Shown in pieces: positions 22,801 to 64,000 of a DNA stretch of 64,000 bases. Under the pieces are notes generated by a model. That model did not search any database. It was not told where the DNA came from and saw only the letters and a list, made by a program, of their open reading frames with translations. Positions within the stretch are counted from its first letter, which is position 1, and every line of letters begins with the position of its first letter. A program made the translations under genes and the position numbers. Source of the stretch: Quercus robur. Lineage: Eukaryota; Streptophyta; Magnoliopsida; Fagales; Fagaceae. The DNA lies in contig NC_065545.1 of the NCBI RefSeq assembly GCF_932294415.1, positions 17,798,857 to 17,862,856 on the forward strand. The letters are read 5' to 3'.

Positions 22801-25800
22801 ACTTTATCCAACAAATTTAGATATATAAGGGAAAACATTCCATGGTAATAGAGATGGTATAATTAATCGACAGTAAAATTTAATTGGTTGAGGGCCAACA
22901 GTTTTTTTTTTTTAATGGATTCTTCCCTGCATCCCACAATGATAACCTAAGCTTAATGGATTATCCTAAAATAAAATAAAAAACTCTCTTAAAGTGGAAG
23001 TTCAATTTCTTTTTTTTTTGATAGATAAAGTGGAAGTTCAATTTCATTTATAACCTTCAACATTTTCTTATCAAAAACCTTTCCAGCTTTAATATGAGAT
23101 AAAGAACATTATTGGTTGACACTATGTTTTTAATTTTTCATTGATAATCATGCCATTTCAAAAGACTCATGTGGAACAGAGAAAGCATTTTCTCTTTCAA
23201 GAAAATCAGAAAGTGCATAGCGCCTTGCATTTTGAAAAAAAGCATGCACCTTTTGCACTTTAGGTGCCCTTAATAATATGCGCTTCACTTTAGGGGTAGG
23301 GGTAAGAAGCGCTTTTCTTCTGGCACTTTACAGTATGCACTTTAAGCACAGCTAGGCACATTTTTATTGACAGCGGACTATTGCTAAAGAGTTTGATTTG
23401 ATGACCAAGTATACAAATTAGCCAAAGAGAAAAGGGGAAGGGTCAAGGAAAGAAAGAGTTTCAAGAAGCTGGAAGCATATTCATATTTTTTACCAAAAAA
23501 AAAATCTAGTTTTACTATTAATTTGGGTTGATAAATGCGTAAAACAGAGATCATCCAAAGGTAAGAATTAAGTGCAATTGGAGAGGACTACTCACCAAAT
23601 TATTAGAGTCTACGTCCATAGAGTCATCATCAGTCTTCAACAAAGGAATCCTAAGCCACAACTTTTAAGAGGAAGCAATAAGAACAGAGAAATAATGAGA
23701 TAGAAAGAAACTTTATAAGGCAAAAAAAAAATGTATATTATAAATAAATTTGGATTAAGAGTGGCACCTGCATATTGTTTAGGCCCTGTAATATCTGATT
23801 CACACACCTAGCATAATTTGCACAGGATGTTCCCTTGGGAGTAGGAAGAAGGCATGCCTGCAGCATATAAGTAAGCATTGAAAACTTTAGCTTTTAATCA
23901 TAAAAGTAGTTTTTTTTTTAACAAGGACCACATCACATGTCAAAGCATAACACAACATCACATATTACTTTTTTGATAGGTGAAAAAAGTAATAATATTG
24001 AATTTTATTTTTTTGTGATAAGCTACTGCAACCATATTGATTAATGCACGTCTCAACCAAATGGGATTGTATTAAGGTACCTTTATATGGTCATGGACAT
24101 CATCATCTAGCCTACAGTTTTTTGGGGAGGAGAGAATAGTTCTAAAGCTAGCCATGCTCATTGAAGTGCATCAGAACATAAAATAATCAACATGATGCAA
24201 ACCTGGAGGGAGAGATGAGAAGCCCAAGCTATTTCTTGCTTTAGAGTGGTTTCAGAATCCATTCGAACGATCTCATCATCCGAGTCCAAGTCAATCCACG
24301 AGCTAATTTTTCCTGAAAAAAGTTAAGAGCCCACTTACTGAGGGAGTCCAAGTTTTAAAATGCCAAATGGTTACAACAAAAACAATAAAACCATGCAGTG
24401 TCCATGCCAACATTTCTTGGTGAAGGCTTCAAATGCCAAAATTAAGGCTCATTAACCTACTCTCTAATAAGTTCAATTAATAAACTGAAAAATGAAAATC
24501 CATGGTAAAGGCATAAAATAAACAGAGATCAAAATATTGTCTTAAACAGCCCAGATGGCATTCAGCACCCAATAAACTCCATCTAAGTAGTAACAACTCA
24601 TTCCTGAATTATTTAGCTATCTAAAGGATAGTGTACTGAGTACAAACACAAGTACATTGACACTCCTTGAATGCTTTGGAAAACACTCCAATGTATTCCC
24701 CATTGATAATGAAGAATGTACATAAGTCCATTAGTTCAGTATGATCTAGAAAATGGCAGAGCACCAGATCCACCTAGCCACCAAAATAAAAAAAATATAA
24801 GATCTGTCAAAGCCCATTCCAGTCTCACAAATATCAGGAGGCAACTCAAATAAGATGAATGCAACAAACAATTTGAAATTTGATGGGAAAAAGGATGATG
24901 TCAAACCAACCATGAGGAAACAGTAAATTTTCAAGTAGTCTAGAACATTCATACCCACTACATGACTACTCCATTGGGATGGGCTCAAAACCAAGTCTGA
25001 CCCAGCAAATGGCAGAGCACCAGATCCACCACTGTCTTTTTGCATTAAGCTCGGCCGATAAGCAGGATCCATCTACATCATGATGTCATATAAATATCTA
25101 GGCATTGGGTATTCAATATACAAGAAAATGTGTCTTTTATTCCTAGCACAAAATAAAGCTTGACTAATAATGAATTGAACTTTGATCAAATATAAGTATA
25201 TGTATGATCTAAATGCAACAGGAGTAAAACTGACTATTGTAACACTCAGAAATAACAGTTAGGCTTTAGCACAATCCACATTTATTGAAAACAATTGTTG
25301 GAATACATTTGATCAAATATAAGTATATGTATGATCTAAATGCAACAGGAGTAAAACTGACTATTGTAACACTCAGAAATAACAGTTAGGCTTTAGCACA
25401 ATCCACATTTATTGAAAACAATTGTTGGAATACATTTCCAACCCATGCCTGTCTTGTTCACCAAATAGCAACCAAAACAGAATACACAGTACTTAAAATT
25501 ACAGTTTCTTGATAGTTTCTCTTTAAAATGAGATATGAGTTGCCAACCCCATGGAACTAAGGCTTTGTTGTTGGATATGGTTGCTATCAAACATTCAATT
25601 TAAACACTTATTCATGCATGGTCATAATAACAAGAAGTTACACCAAATGTAACTTAGAATCCACCCTCCAAAACCAAAATACACATCACTGTAACAAACA
25701 ATTTCTAGACTTTGCTCAGGGCAAGATACATTCATAAATAAACCATGAATGATCCTTATTTTTATTGGTAAGTTTACCCGATGGATTTTGAACCCATGCC

Positions 25801-28800
25801 CTTACCCTCTACATTTTTCTTTTGGGGGAAGGAGGTGCCTTTTGAGCTAGGAGTTGGATTTACCATGAACGACCCTTACATCAGCAGATAAGTTAAAGAT
25901 GTATTTGAGCAGCACAGAGCTGACTTATGCATAGAGAGAAAAATGTAGGAAATGAAAATGAAATATGAGACAAAGAAGATGTGCTAGGAGTGTGAGATAT
26001 ACGGATGGGGAATTAGCAACCAAAAAACCATTCAGAATTACAGAGGACAGCTACATTGATTACCAGGATGAGCAAGGCTAATGTGGTAGACAAATAGAAG
26101 ATGAAAAATGAAAACTCCAAACATTTATGTCCCCTTTTATAGAACTAAATTAGACTTGGAGGGCGGGTGGGGGCAGGGGGAGTTAAGTGCATTGATTATT
26201 ATTCATCGGGGAGTAAATAGTTGTCAAAACCATACACCCACAAATATTTAGAATTTTGTCCACTGACAGTTTAACAAATGTGGACCATTTCTGATACAGT
26301 AGGAATTGCTATCGTACATGAAGAACTTTTTGCATAGCATAAGAACAGCCATACAACAGAACTACGTTACTGTTAAAAACCATAGAATGTAGTTAATAGC
26401 CTATGTGAAACCAGAGTCTTACTTCAACTAGATGCTAGCAACACATTACTATAGGTGAGCATGCTACCATTCACACATTTGGCCAATATGTGACTGGCTA
26501 ACTAGTCACTAGAATAAGTGTTAAACAGCAATCAACTTCTACCATGAATTTTTGTATCAAACTAAGTATTGCTCCAATCATGCAAAGCATCGAGAAATAC
26601 ACTGATAATTATTTTAAATTCATGACAAAAAAAAAACTAAAAAGGAGTAAAATCTTAGGTACTATTGGTATCTGGCTGGCTATATAAACCAGTTCTAATA
26701 CCATTACGTTATTAATAACTAGTCAAAAGCATCAGATACTGCACAATGAAAATGGTTAACATGTATTTTCCGGGAAGACAGTACTAACAGATAAAGGGTT
26801 CCAAAGAAACCATAGCACAATTATTACACATATAAGAATGTAGTTGAAAGCCAAAAGGTGAAACCAGACTTTTGCTTCACCGTCTAAGGCCACCAACACA
26901 GTACTATTGGTGAGCTTACTGACCATTCACATAAAATAACAGCCATTTGGCTATATGTGATTGGCTAATTAGCCACCGGAAGCAAATGAAATATCCAAGT
27001 CCTCATTAAATAACTAAACATGCACAACATGATCATCACACAAAGAATGATGTAATATATGATCTTTTTATGTTGTCGCCTTGGGTAAAAATTTTGGGCA
27101 ATAAGACATCTTTGGTTCAGTACAATTGCAATGGAATAATGCTACATCCACAATAATTTTCACAACATTCTTCTCAACAGCTGAGTCGGAAGGCTTTTAG
27201 TGGTTCTCATCTGGGCCCGCCACTGAAATCGCACATTCAGCCAATATGTGACTGGCTAACTAGCCACTAGAATTAATGTTAAACAGCAATCAACTTCCAC
27301 TATGAATTTTTGTATCAAACAAAATATTGCTCCAATCATGCAAAGCATTGGGAAATACACTGCTAATTATTTTAAATTCATGACCAAAAAAAGAAGTAAA
27401 TCTTAGGTACTATTGGTATCTGGCTGGCTATATAAACCAGTTCAAATACCATTACATTATTAATAACCAGTCAAAAGCATCAGATACTGCATAGTGAAAA
27501 TGGCTAACATGTATTTTCTGGGAAGACAGTACTAACAGATGAAGGGTTCCAAAGAAGCCATAGCACGATTATTACACATATAAGAATGTAGTTGAAAGCC
27601 AAAAGGTGAAACCAGACTTTTGCTTCACCATCTAAGGCCACCAACGCAGTATTATTGGTGAGCTTACTGACCATTCACATAAAATAACAGCCATACGATG
27701 ATACGTGATTGGCTAATTAGCCACCGGAAGCAAATAAATCATCCAAGTCCTCATTAAATAACCAAACATGCACAACATGATCATCACACAAAGAATGATG
27801 TAAAATATGATCTTTTTATGTTGTCAACTTGGGTAAAAATTTTGGGCGATAAGACATCTTTGGTTCGGTACAATTGCAAAGGAATAATGCTATATCTACA
27901 ATAATTTTCACAACATTCTTCTCAACAGTTGAGTTGGAGAGTTTTTAGTGGCTCTCATCTAGGGCCACCAATGACATCACACATTCGGCCAATATGCGAC
28001 TGGCTAACTAGCCACTAGAATTAATGTTAAACAGCAATCAACTTGTACTATGAATTTTTGTATCGAACTAAGTATTGCTCCAATCATGCAAAGCATCGAG
28101 AAATACACTGCTAATTATTTTAAATTCATGACAAAAAAAAGAGTAAATATTAGGAACTATTGGCATCTGACTGGCTATATAAACCAGTTAAAAAACCATT
28201 ACGATATTAATAACCTGTCAAAAGCATCAGATACTGCAGAATGAAAATAGTTAACATGTATTTTCCAGGAAGACATTACTAACAGATGATGGGTTTTAAA
28301 GAAGCCATAGCACAATTATTACACATATAAGAATGTAGTTGAAAACCAAAAGGTGAAACCAGATTTTTGCTTCACCGTCTAAGGCCACCAACACAGTACT
28401 GTTGGTGAGCTTACTGACCATTCACATAAAACAACAGCCATGCGGCTATATGTGATTGGCTAATTAGCCACCGGAAGCAAATAAAACATCCAAGACCTCG
28501 TTAAATTACTAAGCATGCACAACATGATCATCACACAAAGATTGATATACAATATGATCTTTTTATGTTGTTGCCTTGGGAAACAATTTTGGGCAATAAG
28601 ACATCGTTGGTTCAGTACAATTGCGAAGGCAAAATGCTACACACACAACAATTTTCACAACATTTTTCACTTTGGCAAAGCTTTTACTAGTTCTCATCTG
28701 GACCCAACATCAACATACAGTGCCTTATGACATAGTAGCTCATTATGAAAACCCATCAACCAATTCAGTGTAATAAACCTTTCTTCTTCACTATCACACA

Positions 28801-63617: not shown

Positions 63618-64000
63618 GAGTTGATACAAGAGGTTTCAAATCACCCCCATAATAAATGAAATTGGTGCTAATTTCTCTATAGTTTTATTTATTTTAATTT
63701 GAAAGTTGTGAGGTGGAGGATTTGAACCTTTGAGGGTTTGGAAGTCTCTATTGTTTTATTTTATTTTTGAGAAAGGTGTGGAAGTCTCTATTAAAAAGAC
63801 GAAGAGGTGTTAGTTGAACTAATTGGTCTATTGTTATCTCTTAATGAATACAATTATAAAATAATGCAACAAAACATTTTATTATATATAAGCATTTTCT
63901 TTTAATTACAATGTAACAAAATAAGGCATAGTCTTTTTAATTTTTAATTTAAATTACAAGTTTTGCCTATGTAATGTATATATAATCTAGTTATTTTGAG
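63618..64000. other. 3' flank of the CER2-like gene
   Basis: It includes the 3' UTR; an AATAAATGAA signal occurs at about 63650. No further gene before the window ends. Confidence 0.5.
63753..63778 (-). mobile_element. Tiny poly(A) insertion with 14-bp TSD
   Basis: Twenty-six bases, reading CACCTTTCTC plus an A-rich tail on the minus strand, lie between identical TGGAAGTCTCTATT copies at 63739-63752 and 63779-63792. The CTTTCTCAAAAA join resembles that of the insertions at 37115 and 37308. Confidence 0.6.

Follow-up and report, generated by a model that had tools for sequence, protein, structure and literature searches.

We analyzed a window of 64,000 nt from Quercus robur contig NC_065545.1 (all positions below are numbered within it) for which a preliminary description had listed eight tiny inserts ending in poly(A) and lying between direct repeats. 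We find that these inserts, hereafter stubs, belong to a class that is real and exceeds chance, and that they are very probably completed, minimal products of target-primed reverse transcription (TPRT). They are a variant of known TPRT insertions and not a new system, and an L1-type enzyme would be responsible for them, judging by their structure. Whereas the insertion products themselves are of a known kind, the surprising part is how sharply they stop, often about 6-9 bases past the junction between the poly(A) tail and the body of the copied RNA. The inserts in the window are as follows, with a slash marking the target junction:

Positions 15094-15129, plus strand: stub TCTATATCTTCCATTC-A20 between perfect 13-bp repeats at 15081-15093 and 15130-15142.
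Positions 23010-23025, minus strand: stub TCTATC-A10 between perfect 20-bp repeats at 22990-23009 and 23026-23045.
Positions 33222-33244, minus strand: possible stub CTATTCAGC-A8-GAAGAC, repeats identical at 16 of 17 bp; moderate.
Positions 36329-36344, plus strand: stub ATCC-A11(C), repeat AAAAGTTGACCTATAATTT, target junction CTT/AAAA.
Positions 37115-37138, plus strand: stub GTTTCTC-A17/18 between perfect 18-bp repeats at 37097-37114 and 37139-37156, target junction CCT/AA.
Positions 37308-37335, plus strand: probable stub TGTTTCTC-A18(GG), short imperfect repeat, target junction TTTTTT/AAG.
Positions 63753-63778, minus strand: stub TTTCTC followed by AAAAATAAAATAAAAC, repeat AATAGAGACTTCCAMACC identical at 17 of 18 bp, target junction TTTTT/AAT.
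Positions 5400-5437, minus strand: weak candidate ending in CCTTTTTCTC-A21, repeat identical at only 8 of 9 bp.

All eight inserts lay where the preliminary description had placed them, and the repeat copies of seven were relocated (5400 not among them). Three repeats had been drawn with the wrong bounds: at 36329 the repeat reaches AAAA further left, with one mismatch (AAAA versus AAAC), at 37115 it is one A longer leftward, and at 63753 what had been given as a perfect 14-bp repeat is better read as the 17 of 18 bp listed above, on the minus strand, which makes the insert TTTCTC followed by AAAAATAAAATAAAAC. The sites at 15094, 23010, 36329, 37115, and 63753 are convincing, those at 33222 and 37308 are moderate, and 5400 remains weak, as it had been graded before. 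The 16-nt non-A portion at 15094 is the upper end of the range of the class. At 33222, GAAGAC intervenes between the A8 run and the repeat and the target site is not T/A-like, making this site a poorer fit. The tail at 37308 is persuasive, and its repeat is short; the scans for target-site duplications (TSDs) discard low-complexity repeats and thereby lost this site, and perhaps further genuine cases too.

We compared the frequency of such structures with several controls. Within the window, 12 matches had a repeat score of at least 10 (several of them ordinary tandem repeats), compared to means of 1.35 in fourth-order Markov (Markov-4) sequence and 1.2 after flank swapping, in which the downstream flanks were exchanged between A-runs. 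The mirrored window, i.e. the sequence reversed without being complemented, gave 9 matches, several of which were identical loci viewed in reverse. The main scan covered 264 kb, consisting of the window and twenty 10-kb loci fetched around TTTCTC sites, and required an A-run of at least 8 adjoining the 3' repeat copy, a repeat score of at least 11, and at least 3 non-A bases. Here 39 of 425 A-runs qualified, compared to 6 in the mirrored sequence and 0-4 after swapping (mean 1.4, 10 shuffles). Seven of the 39 were TTTCTC sites that had brought their own loci into the sample, and 32 were left after their removal. These strict settings passed just three of the eight inserts listed above (15094, 23010, and 36329). 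Under looser settings, again excluding the chosen sites, 32 stubs were found per 264 kb, two of them with the TTTCTC tail. Given the shortness of the inserts, several of the real loci reappear in the mirrored lists. The recurrence claimed in the preliminary description thus stands as an excess over randomized sequence, and the resulting density of one stub per ~8-13 kb would, by extrapolation, amount to tens of thousands per genome. The sequence is AT-rich with many A-runs, and some window matches are no more than tandem repeats, as would be expected if direct repeats fell by chance near common A-runs or arose by slipped tandem duplication at microsatellites. Such an origin is extremely improbable and is refuted for the class, given that the flank-swap and Markov nulls yield about one match each and that empty sites exist at two loci (see below), although individual weak candidates, 5400 for one, may have arisen in this way.

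The preliminary description had further proposed that the inserts derive from the same few RNA tails. This was only partly upheld: the TTTCTC tail is exceptional, while 34 of 68 stubs carry other, mostly differing tails. Although TTTCTCAAAA occurs four times in the window, in each case at a listed insert, 4 of 100 shuffles equaled that number, and it is the genome-wide counts that make the shared tail certain. Across 785,749,727 bases in 42 contigs, TTTCTC-A8 occurs 9,753 times (4,852 + 4,901), compared to 674 (328 + 346) for the backwards pattern and 616 (376 reversed) for TTCTTC-A8, a scrambled control of the same composition. A second recurrent tail, TTTCATC, was considered after it had been seen twice in a scan and was rejected, as the genome-wide counts for TTTCATC-A8 (312 compared to 186 reversed) indicate no large family.

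We then sampled 80 loci around TTTCTC sites among the first 100 matches listed, all of them at one end of a single contig and together containing 83 TTTCTC-A8 sites. A repeat with a score of at least 9 was present at 52 of the 83, and the non-A part measured at most 12 nt in 41 cases, 13-59 nt in 5, and at least 60 nt in 6, with flank-swap means for the same bins of 0.6, 0.9, and 2.4. In the shortest bin the swap maximum was 3 across 60 shuffles, as opposed to the 41 real cases. Within this bin, lengths of 6 nt (8 stubs), 7 nt (19), and 8 nt (6) accounted for 33 of the 41. Scaled from this sample at one end of one contig, the data suggest a genome total of about 5,000 TTTCTC stubs.

The 68 stubs comprise 34 with the TTTCTC tail, selected under stricter criteria than the 41 of the length count, and 34 with other tails. 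Their duplications span 10-24 bp with a mode of 16, most of them being 13-18 bp long; 50 of the 68 are perfect, and 21 of 925 positions differ. As the scan required a score of at least 10, shorter duplications were missed by design. The targets favor pyrimidine/AA, matching the TT/AA preference of the L1 endonuclease: at least two A open the upstream copy of the duplication in 43 of the 68 stubs (22 of the 34 with TTTCTC, 21 of the 34 with other tails), compared to a fraction of 0.116 at random positions, and in 48 of the 68 a T or C directly precedes the duplication. Furthermore, a search with 74 joined queries against the fetched loci returned two clear empty sites, which are paralogues of two stub loci, L029 (GGCTTATC-A19) and L036 (CTATCGAAAAG-A10); at ~79-83% identity, each contains the target once and lacks the insert. 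The traits of L1-type TPRT found here are a TSD mostly of 13-18 bp (~7-20 bp being typical of such insertions), an A-tail on the correct side, at the 3' copy, a TT/AA-like target, empty sites at two loci, and, for two tails, a body matching the 3' end of a retroposon. Together with the excess over controls, they agree with the earlier suggestion of TPRT that stopped almost at once.

Direct repeats around an insert could also be produced by repair of a staggered double-strand break, with fill-in as the origin of the repeats and captured filler as that of the insert, and the window does hold short-range repeats around fillers that lack a terminal A-run, such as that at 22659-22697. As an account of the stubs this is very unlikely and is largely refuted by the polarity and identity of the tails: the A-run lies at the 3' copy (39 cases compared to 6 mirrored), the targets are of the pyrimidine/AA type, and TTTCTC is present as a tail in thousands of places. 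The site at 22659-22697 has a 39-nt filler inside perfect 15-bp repeats with an internal rather than terminal A-run, and may itself stem from break repair rather than from TPRT.

We also examined where the inserts stop. Among the 39 qualifying sites of the 264-kb scan, the non-A part measured 3-16 nt in 30 and 60-200 nt in 9, and no site fell between 17 and 59 nt; after the seven chosen sites were dropped, the corresponding numbers for the 32 sites were 25 (3-16 nt), 0 (17-59 nt), and 7 (at least 60 nt). In the 68 stubs the A-run varies from 7 to 30 whereas the non-A part is centered on 6-9 nt (the scan kept 3-14 nt), and the stop is therefore measured from the junction of poly(A) and body. 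The very early stop inferred in the preliminary description is supported and is amended in its form: ends cluster ~6-9 bases past the poly(A) junction, sharply for TTTCTC and more broadly for other tails. As the 34 stubs with other tails show, the stop is independent of any single tail sequence. A stall at a stem just upstream of TTTCTC was considered and dropped, since folding of the 3' region of the source family described below gave z-scores of -0.28 and +0.32, i.e. no significant fold at the stop. The stubs might alternatively be longer retroposons shrunk by internal deletion, in line with the existence of longer family members that end in the identical tail. We regard this as highly improbable, because deletions would end randomly but lengths of 6-8 nt make up 33 of the 41 TTTCTC stubs and the 264-kb scan has nothing at 17-59 nt, and because 50 of 68 perfect duplications leave small scope for repeated exact deletions.

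Two of the tails were traced to a source: TTTCTC is the end of a retroposon family, and TTTACC is the end of a long interspersed nuclear element (LINE). For the first of these the relevant features of the window are:

Positions 17407-17557, minus strand: copy of the TTTCTC source family, ending in TTTGTTTCT-A12 and containing GTCCCACATTG, 24 nt, TATAA.
Positions 61131-61347: U3 small nucleolar RNA gene.

The source family has the 3' end TTTGTTTCTC-A(n) and is built of head-to-tail units of ~170-175 bp. The 20 source copies that were fetched usually consist of a 5'-truncated first unit, one or two full units, and the A-tail, and longer arrays were also listed. A target duplication encloses the entire array in 11 of the 20, so that the junctions of these long copies are of the same kind as those of the stubs; 4 of the 20 showed internal unit repeats, and 5 showed none. 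Many of the longest first units start near TTAAAAGTTACC, 21-28 nt past TATAA, with exceptions in L110, which begins a few bases earlier, and L112, which opens with a full unit. Among the 83 sampled TTTCTC sites, 13 have a GT-repeat within 40 nt upstream of the A-run, and 10 of those have TTTG, TTTA, or TGTG directly before TTTCTC, as in the source. Genome-wide counts are 470 for the extended source tail TGTGTTTGTTTCTC-A8 and 9,753 for TTTCTC-A8, and stubs therefore probably outnumber long source copies, even with divergence allowed for.

As regards possible transcription by RNA polymerase III, the order GTCCCACATTG, 24 nt, TATAA in the source unit resembles that of the window's U3 gene, which has GTCCCATATCG, 26 nt, TATAA and whose RNA starts 28 nt past the TATA. 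We take GTCCCAC(A/T)T(C/T)G to be the plant upstream sequence element (USE). The plant USE has been reported in U-RNA, MRP, and SRP genes and in short interspersed nuclear elements (SINEs) (PMC12133305). Each source unit would accordingly hold a putative promoter of the USE/TATA type, like that of small nuclear RNA (snRNA) genes, and transcription that starts after TATAA, where many of the longest first units begin, and reads through the next unit would carry the promoter along in the second unit. Like plant SINEs, which are mobilized by L1-clade LINEs via poly(A), the TTTCTC source is short, A-tailed, and flanked by target duplications; according to Ohshima, many plant L1s recognize poly(A) (PMC3747384). 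Unlike them, it is a head-to-tail multimer with the snRNA-like USE/TATA arrangement inside the unit and no detected tRNA head in the window copy. ARAGORN and Rfam (at the gathering threshold) returned only U3 for the entire window and no tRNA, 7SL, or 5S head in the window copy, where a diverged head would escape them.

The source of the TTTACC tail is represented in the window by one element:

Positions 50925-53824, minus strand: L1-type LINE, broken into three open pieces (RVT_1, zf-RVT, and RVT_3), with the 3' end GGTTTACC-A9.

This LINE has domains of the reverse transcriptase, zinc-binding, and RNase H-like kinds and may represent the type of enzyme behind the stubs. TTTACC-A(n) ends the window LINE as well as two of four other LINE ends examined, and TTTACC-A8 occurs 2,267 times genome-wide compared to 613 reversed. 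Of 20 fetched TTTACC sites, 6 had a repeat score of at least 9, and 5 of these were stubs of 6-9 nt, two of the five being paralogous copies of one event. These data give modest support to the view that LINE tails also make stubs; the contrary conclusion, suggested by 0 of 5 local TTTACC sites, was overturned by the 5 stubs in the 20 further sites. The two paralogous copies lie in nearby similar loci (L127 and L128) that carry one common TTTACC stub, indicating that the insertion is probably older than their duplication. Relatives of the window LINE were found neither by protein search in viral and prokaryotic collections nor by motif in viral contigs. In the genome contig collection its motif matched nine contigs (six mussel-symbiont, two Marinifilum, and one Frankia), and CAAAAAAAAA was not found within 8 kb in the Frankia match, the only one of the nine examined.

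Minimal TPRT probably generates the stubs in the following manner. An endonuclease would nick the target beside an A-rich stretch, where an RNA would anneal through its poly(A) tail, and the reverse transcriptase would copy the tail and about 6-9 bases of the RNA body before the cDNA is connected to the opposite target strand, frequently with the gain of a single base, to leave a duplication mostly of 13-18 bp. As the cause of the early stop we favor a switch to the second strand that would be likeliest while the poly(A):oligo(dT) hybrid exits the ~9-bp enclosed channel of the enzyme, and the stop would therefore be set from the junction of A-run and body rather than from the nick or a fold. 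We propose this because human ORF2p makes base-specific contacts to template adenines near the active site and almost fully encloses 9 of 11 traceable base pairs (PMC10830416), and because 5' truncation has been proposed to arise, among other ways, from premature second-strand synthesis (PMC7617806). We further consider it a serious possibility, though one we do not yet lean towards, that TPRT in Quercus robur has an early checkpoint ~6-9 nt past the junction of poly(A) and body at which most attempts are closed. Stubs would then be the commonest retrotransposition products of the genome (tens of thousands, by extrapolation) and an unannotated record of the sites and RNAs of these attempts.

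A serious rival cause of the stop would be limitation by the template, where 5' decay of a polyadenylated RNA leaves the poly(A) with a few protected bases, and the enzyme runs off the end and adds an untemplated base. The sharp end point near TTTCTC, the similar lengths of stubs with differing tails, and the lack of structure at the stop would all fit such decay fragments, as would the first base of the 7-nt TTTCTC stubs, which is C or T rather than the G of the source in 10 of 19 and could be an untemplated addition. A constant 6-9 protected body bases is conjecture, however, and we hold this account to be rather unlikely.

Several observations weigh against minimal TPRT with a second-strand switch at the hybrid exit. 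Of the 19 TTTCTC stubs of 7 nt, 9 begin with the G that the source predicts; the others, about half (7 with C, 3 with T), begin with a base that this source does not explain. No repeat with a score of at least 9 was present at 31 of the 83 TTTCTC sites or at 14 of the 20 TTTACC sites, and only these two tails were traced to a source. Stubs with tails other than TTTCTC spread more widely (3-14 nt, the upper limit of 14 being set by the scan), and under the looser settings the mirrored count rose to 12 compared to 32 real. Moreover, the core contacts of ORF2p are described as sequence non-specific (PMC10830416), contrary to the proposed cause of the stop.

The stubs share their poly(A) end, target duplication, T/AA-like target, and occasional extra base at the 5' junction with 5'-truncated L1 copies and processed retrocopies; extra bases are reported at 14.6% of 5'-truncated L1 (PMC2912911). 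In contrast to these, the Quercus stubs mostly retain 3-16 body bases, peak at 6-9, and leave the range up to 59 unoccupied, and would have been invisible to the human survey, which took inserts of at least 50 bp (PMC2912911). Similarly, the 5'-truncated Sadhu retroposons of Arabidopsis are non-coding plant elements with poly(A) and 7-16 bp duplications, a pattern that their authors called consistent with abortive retrotransposition, but the pieces are long enough to be recognized by similarity, and no fixed minimal length is described in the portions of that report considered here (PMC2848041). Severely truncated maize LINEs are alike in that short LINE 3' ends are known to confuse SINE searches and differ in that the search anchor was the last 30 LINE bases, which exceeds the length of the Quercus inserts (PMC2774510). 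In the open-access literature, whose scope leaves out most subscription journals, searches returned no description of an insert class of 6-9 nt. If many attempts do end 6-9 bases past the tail, truncation would include a distinct early failure besides a smooth loss of processivity, while studies of LINE insertion see only the copies that survive in recognizable form. The stubs would also record the RNA 3' ends that reach the machine, seed new A/T microsatellites, and serve as tiny presence/absence markers that are likely missed by similarity-based repeat annotation.

The window contains the following further features:

Positions ~40492-50905, minus strand: long terminal repeat (LTR) element with end segments 96-98% identical, directly adjoining the 3' end of the broken LINE at 50925-53824, which is likewise on the minus strand.
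Positions 6753-9182, minus strand: open frame of 809 aa, built with charged repeat units of 147 bp and unmatched in Pfam at E 0.001.
Positions 25181-25434: perfect 127-bp tandem duplication.
Positions 26471-28433: threefold tandem duplication with a unit of ~748 bp.
Positions 62529-63617: open frame of the Transferase family (PF02458), located after the U3 gene.

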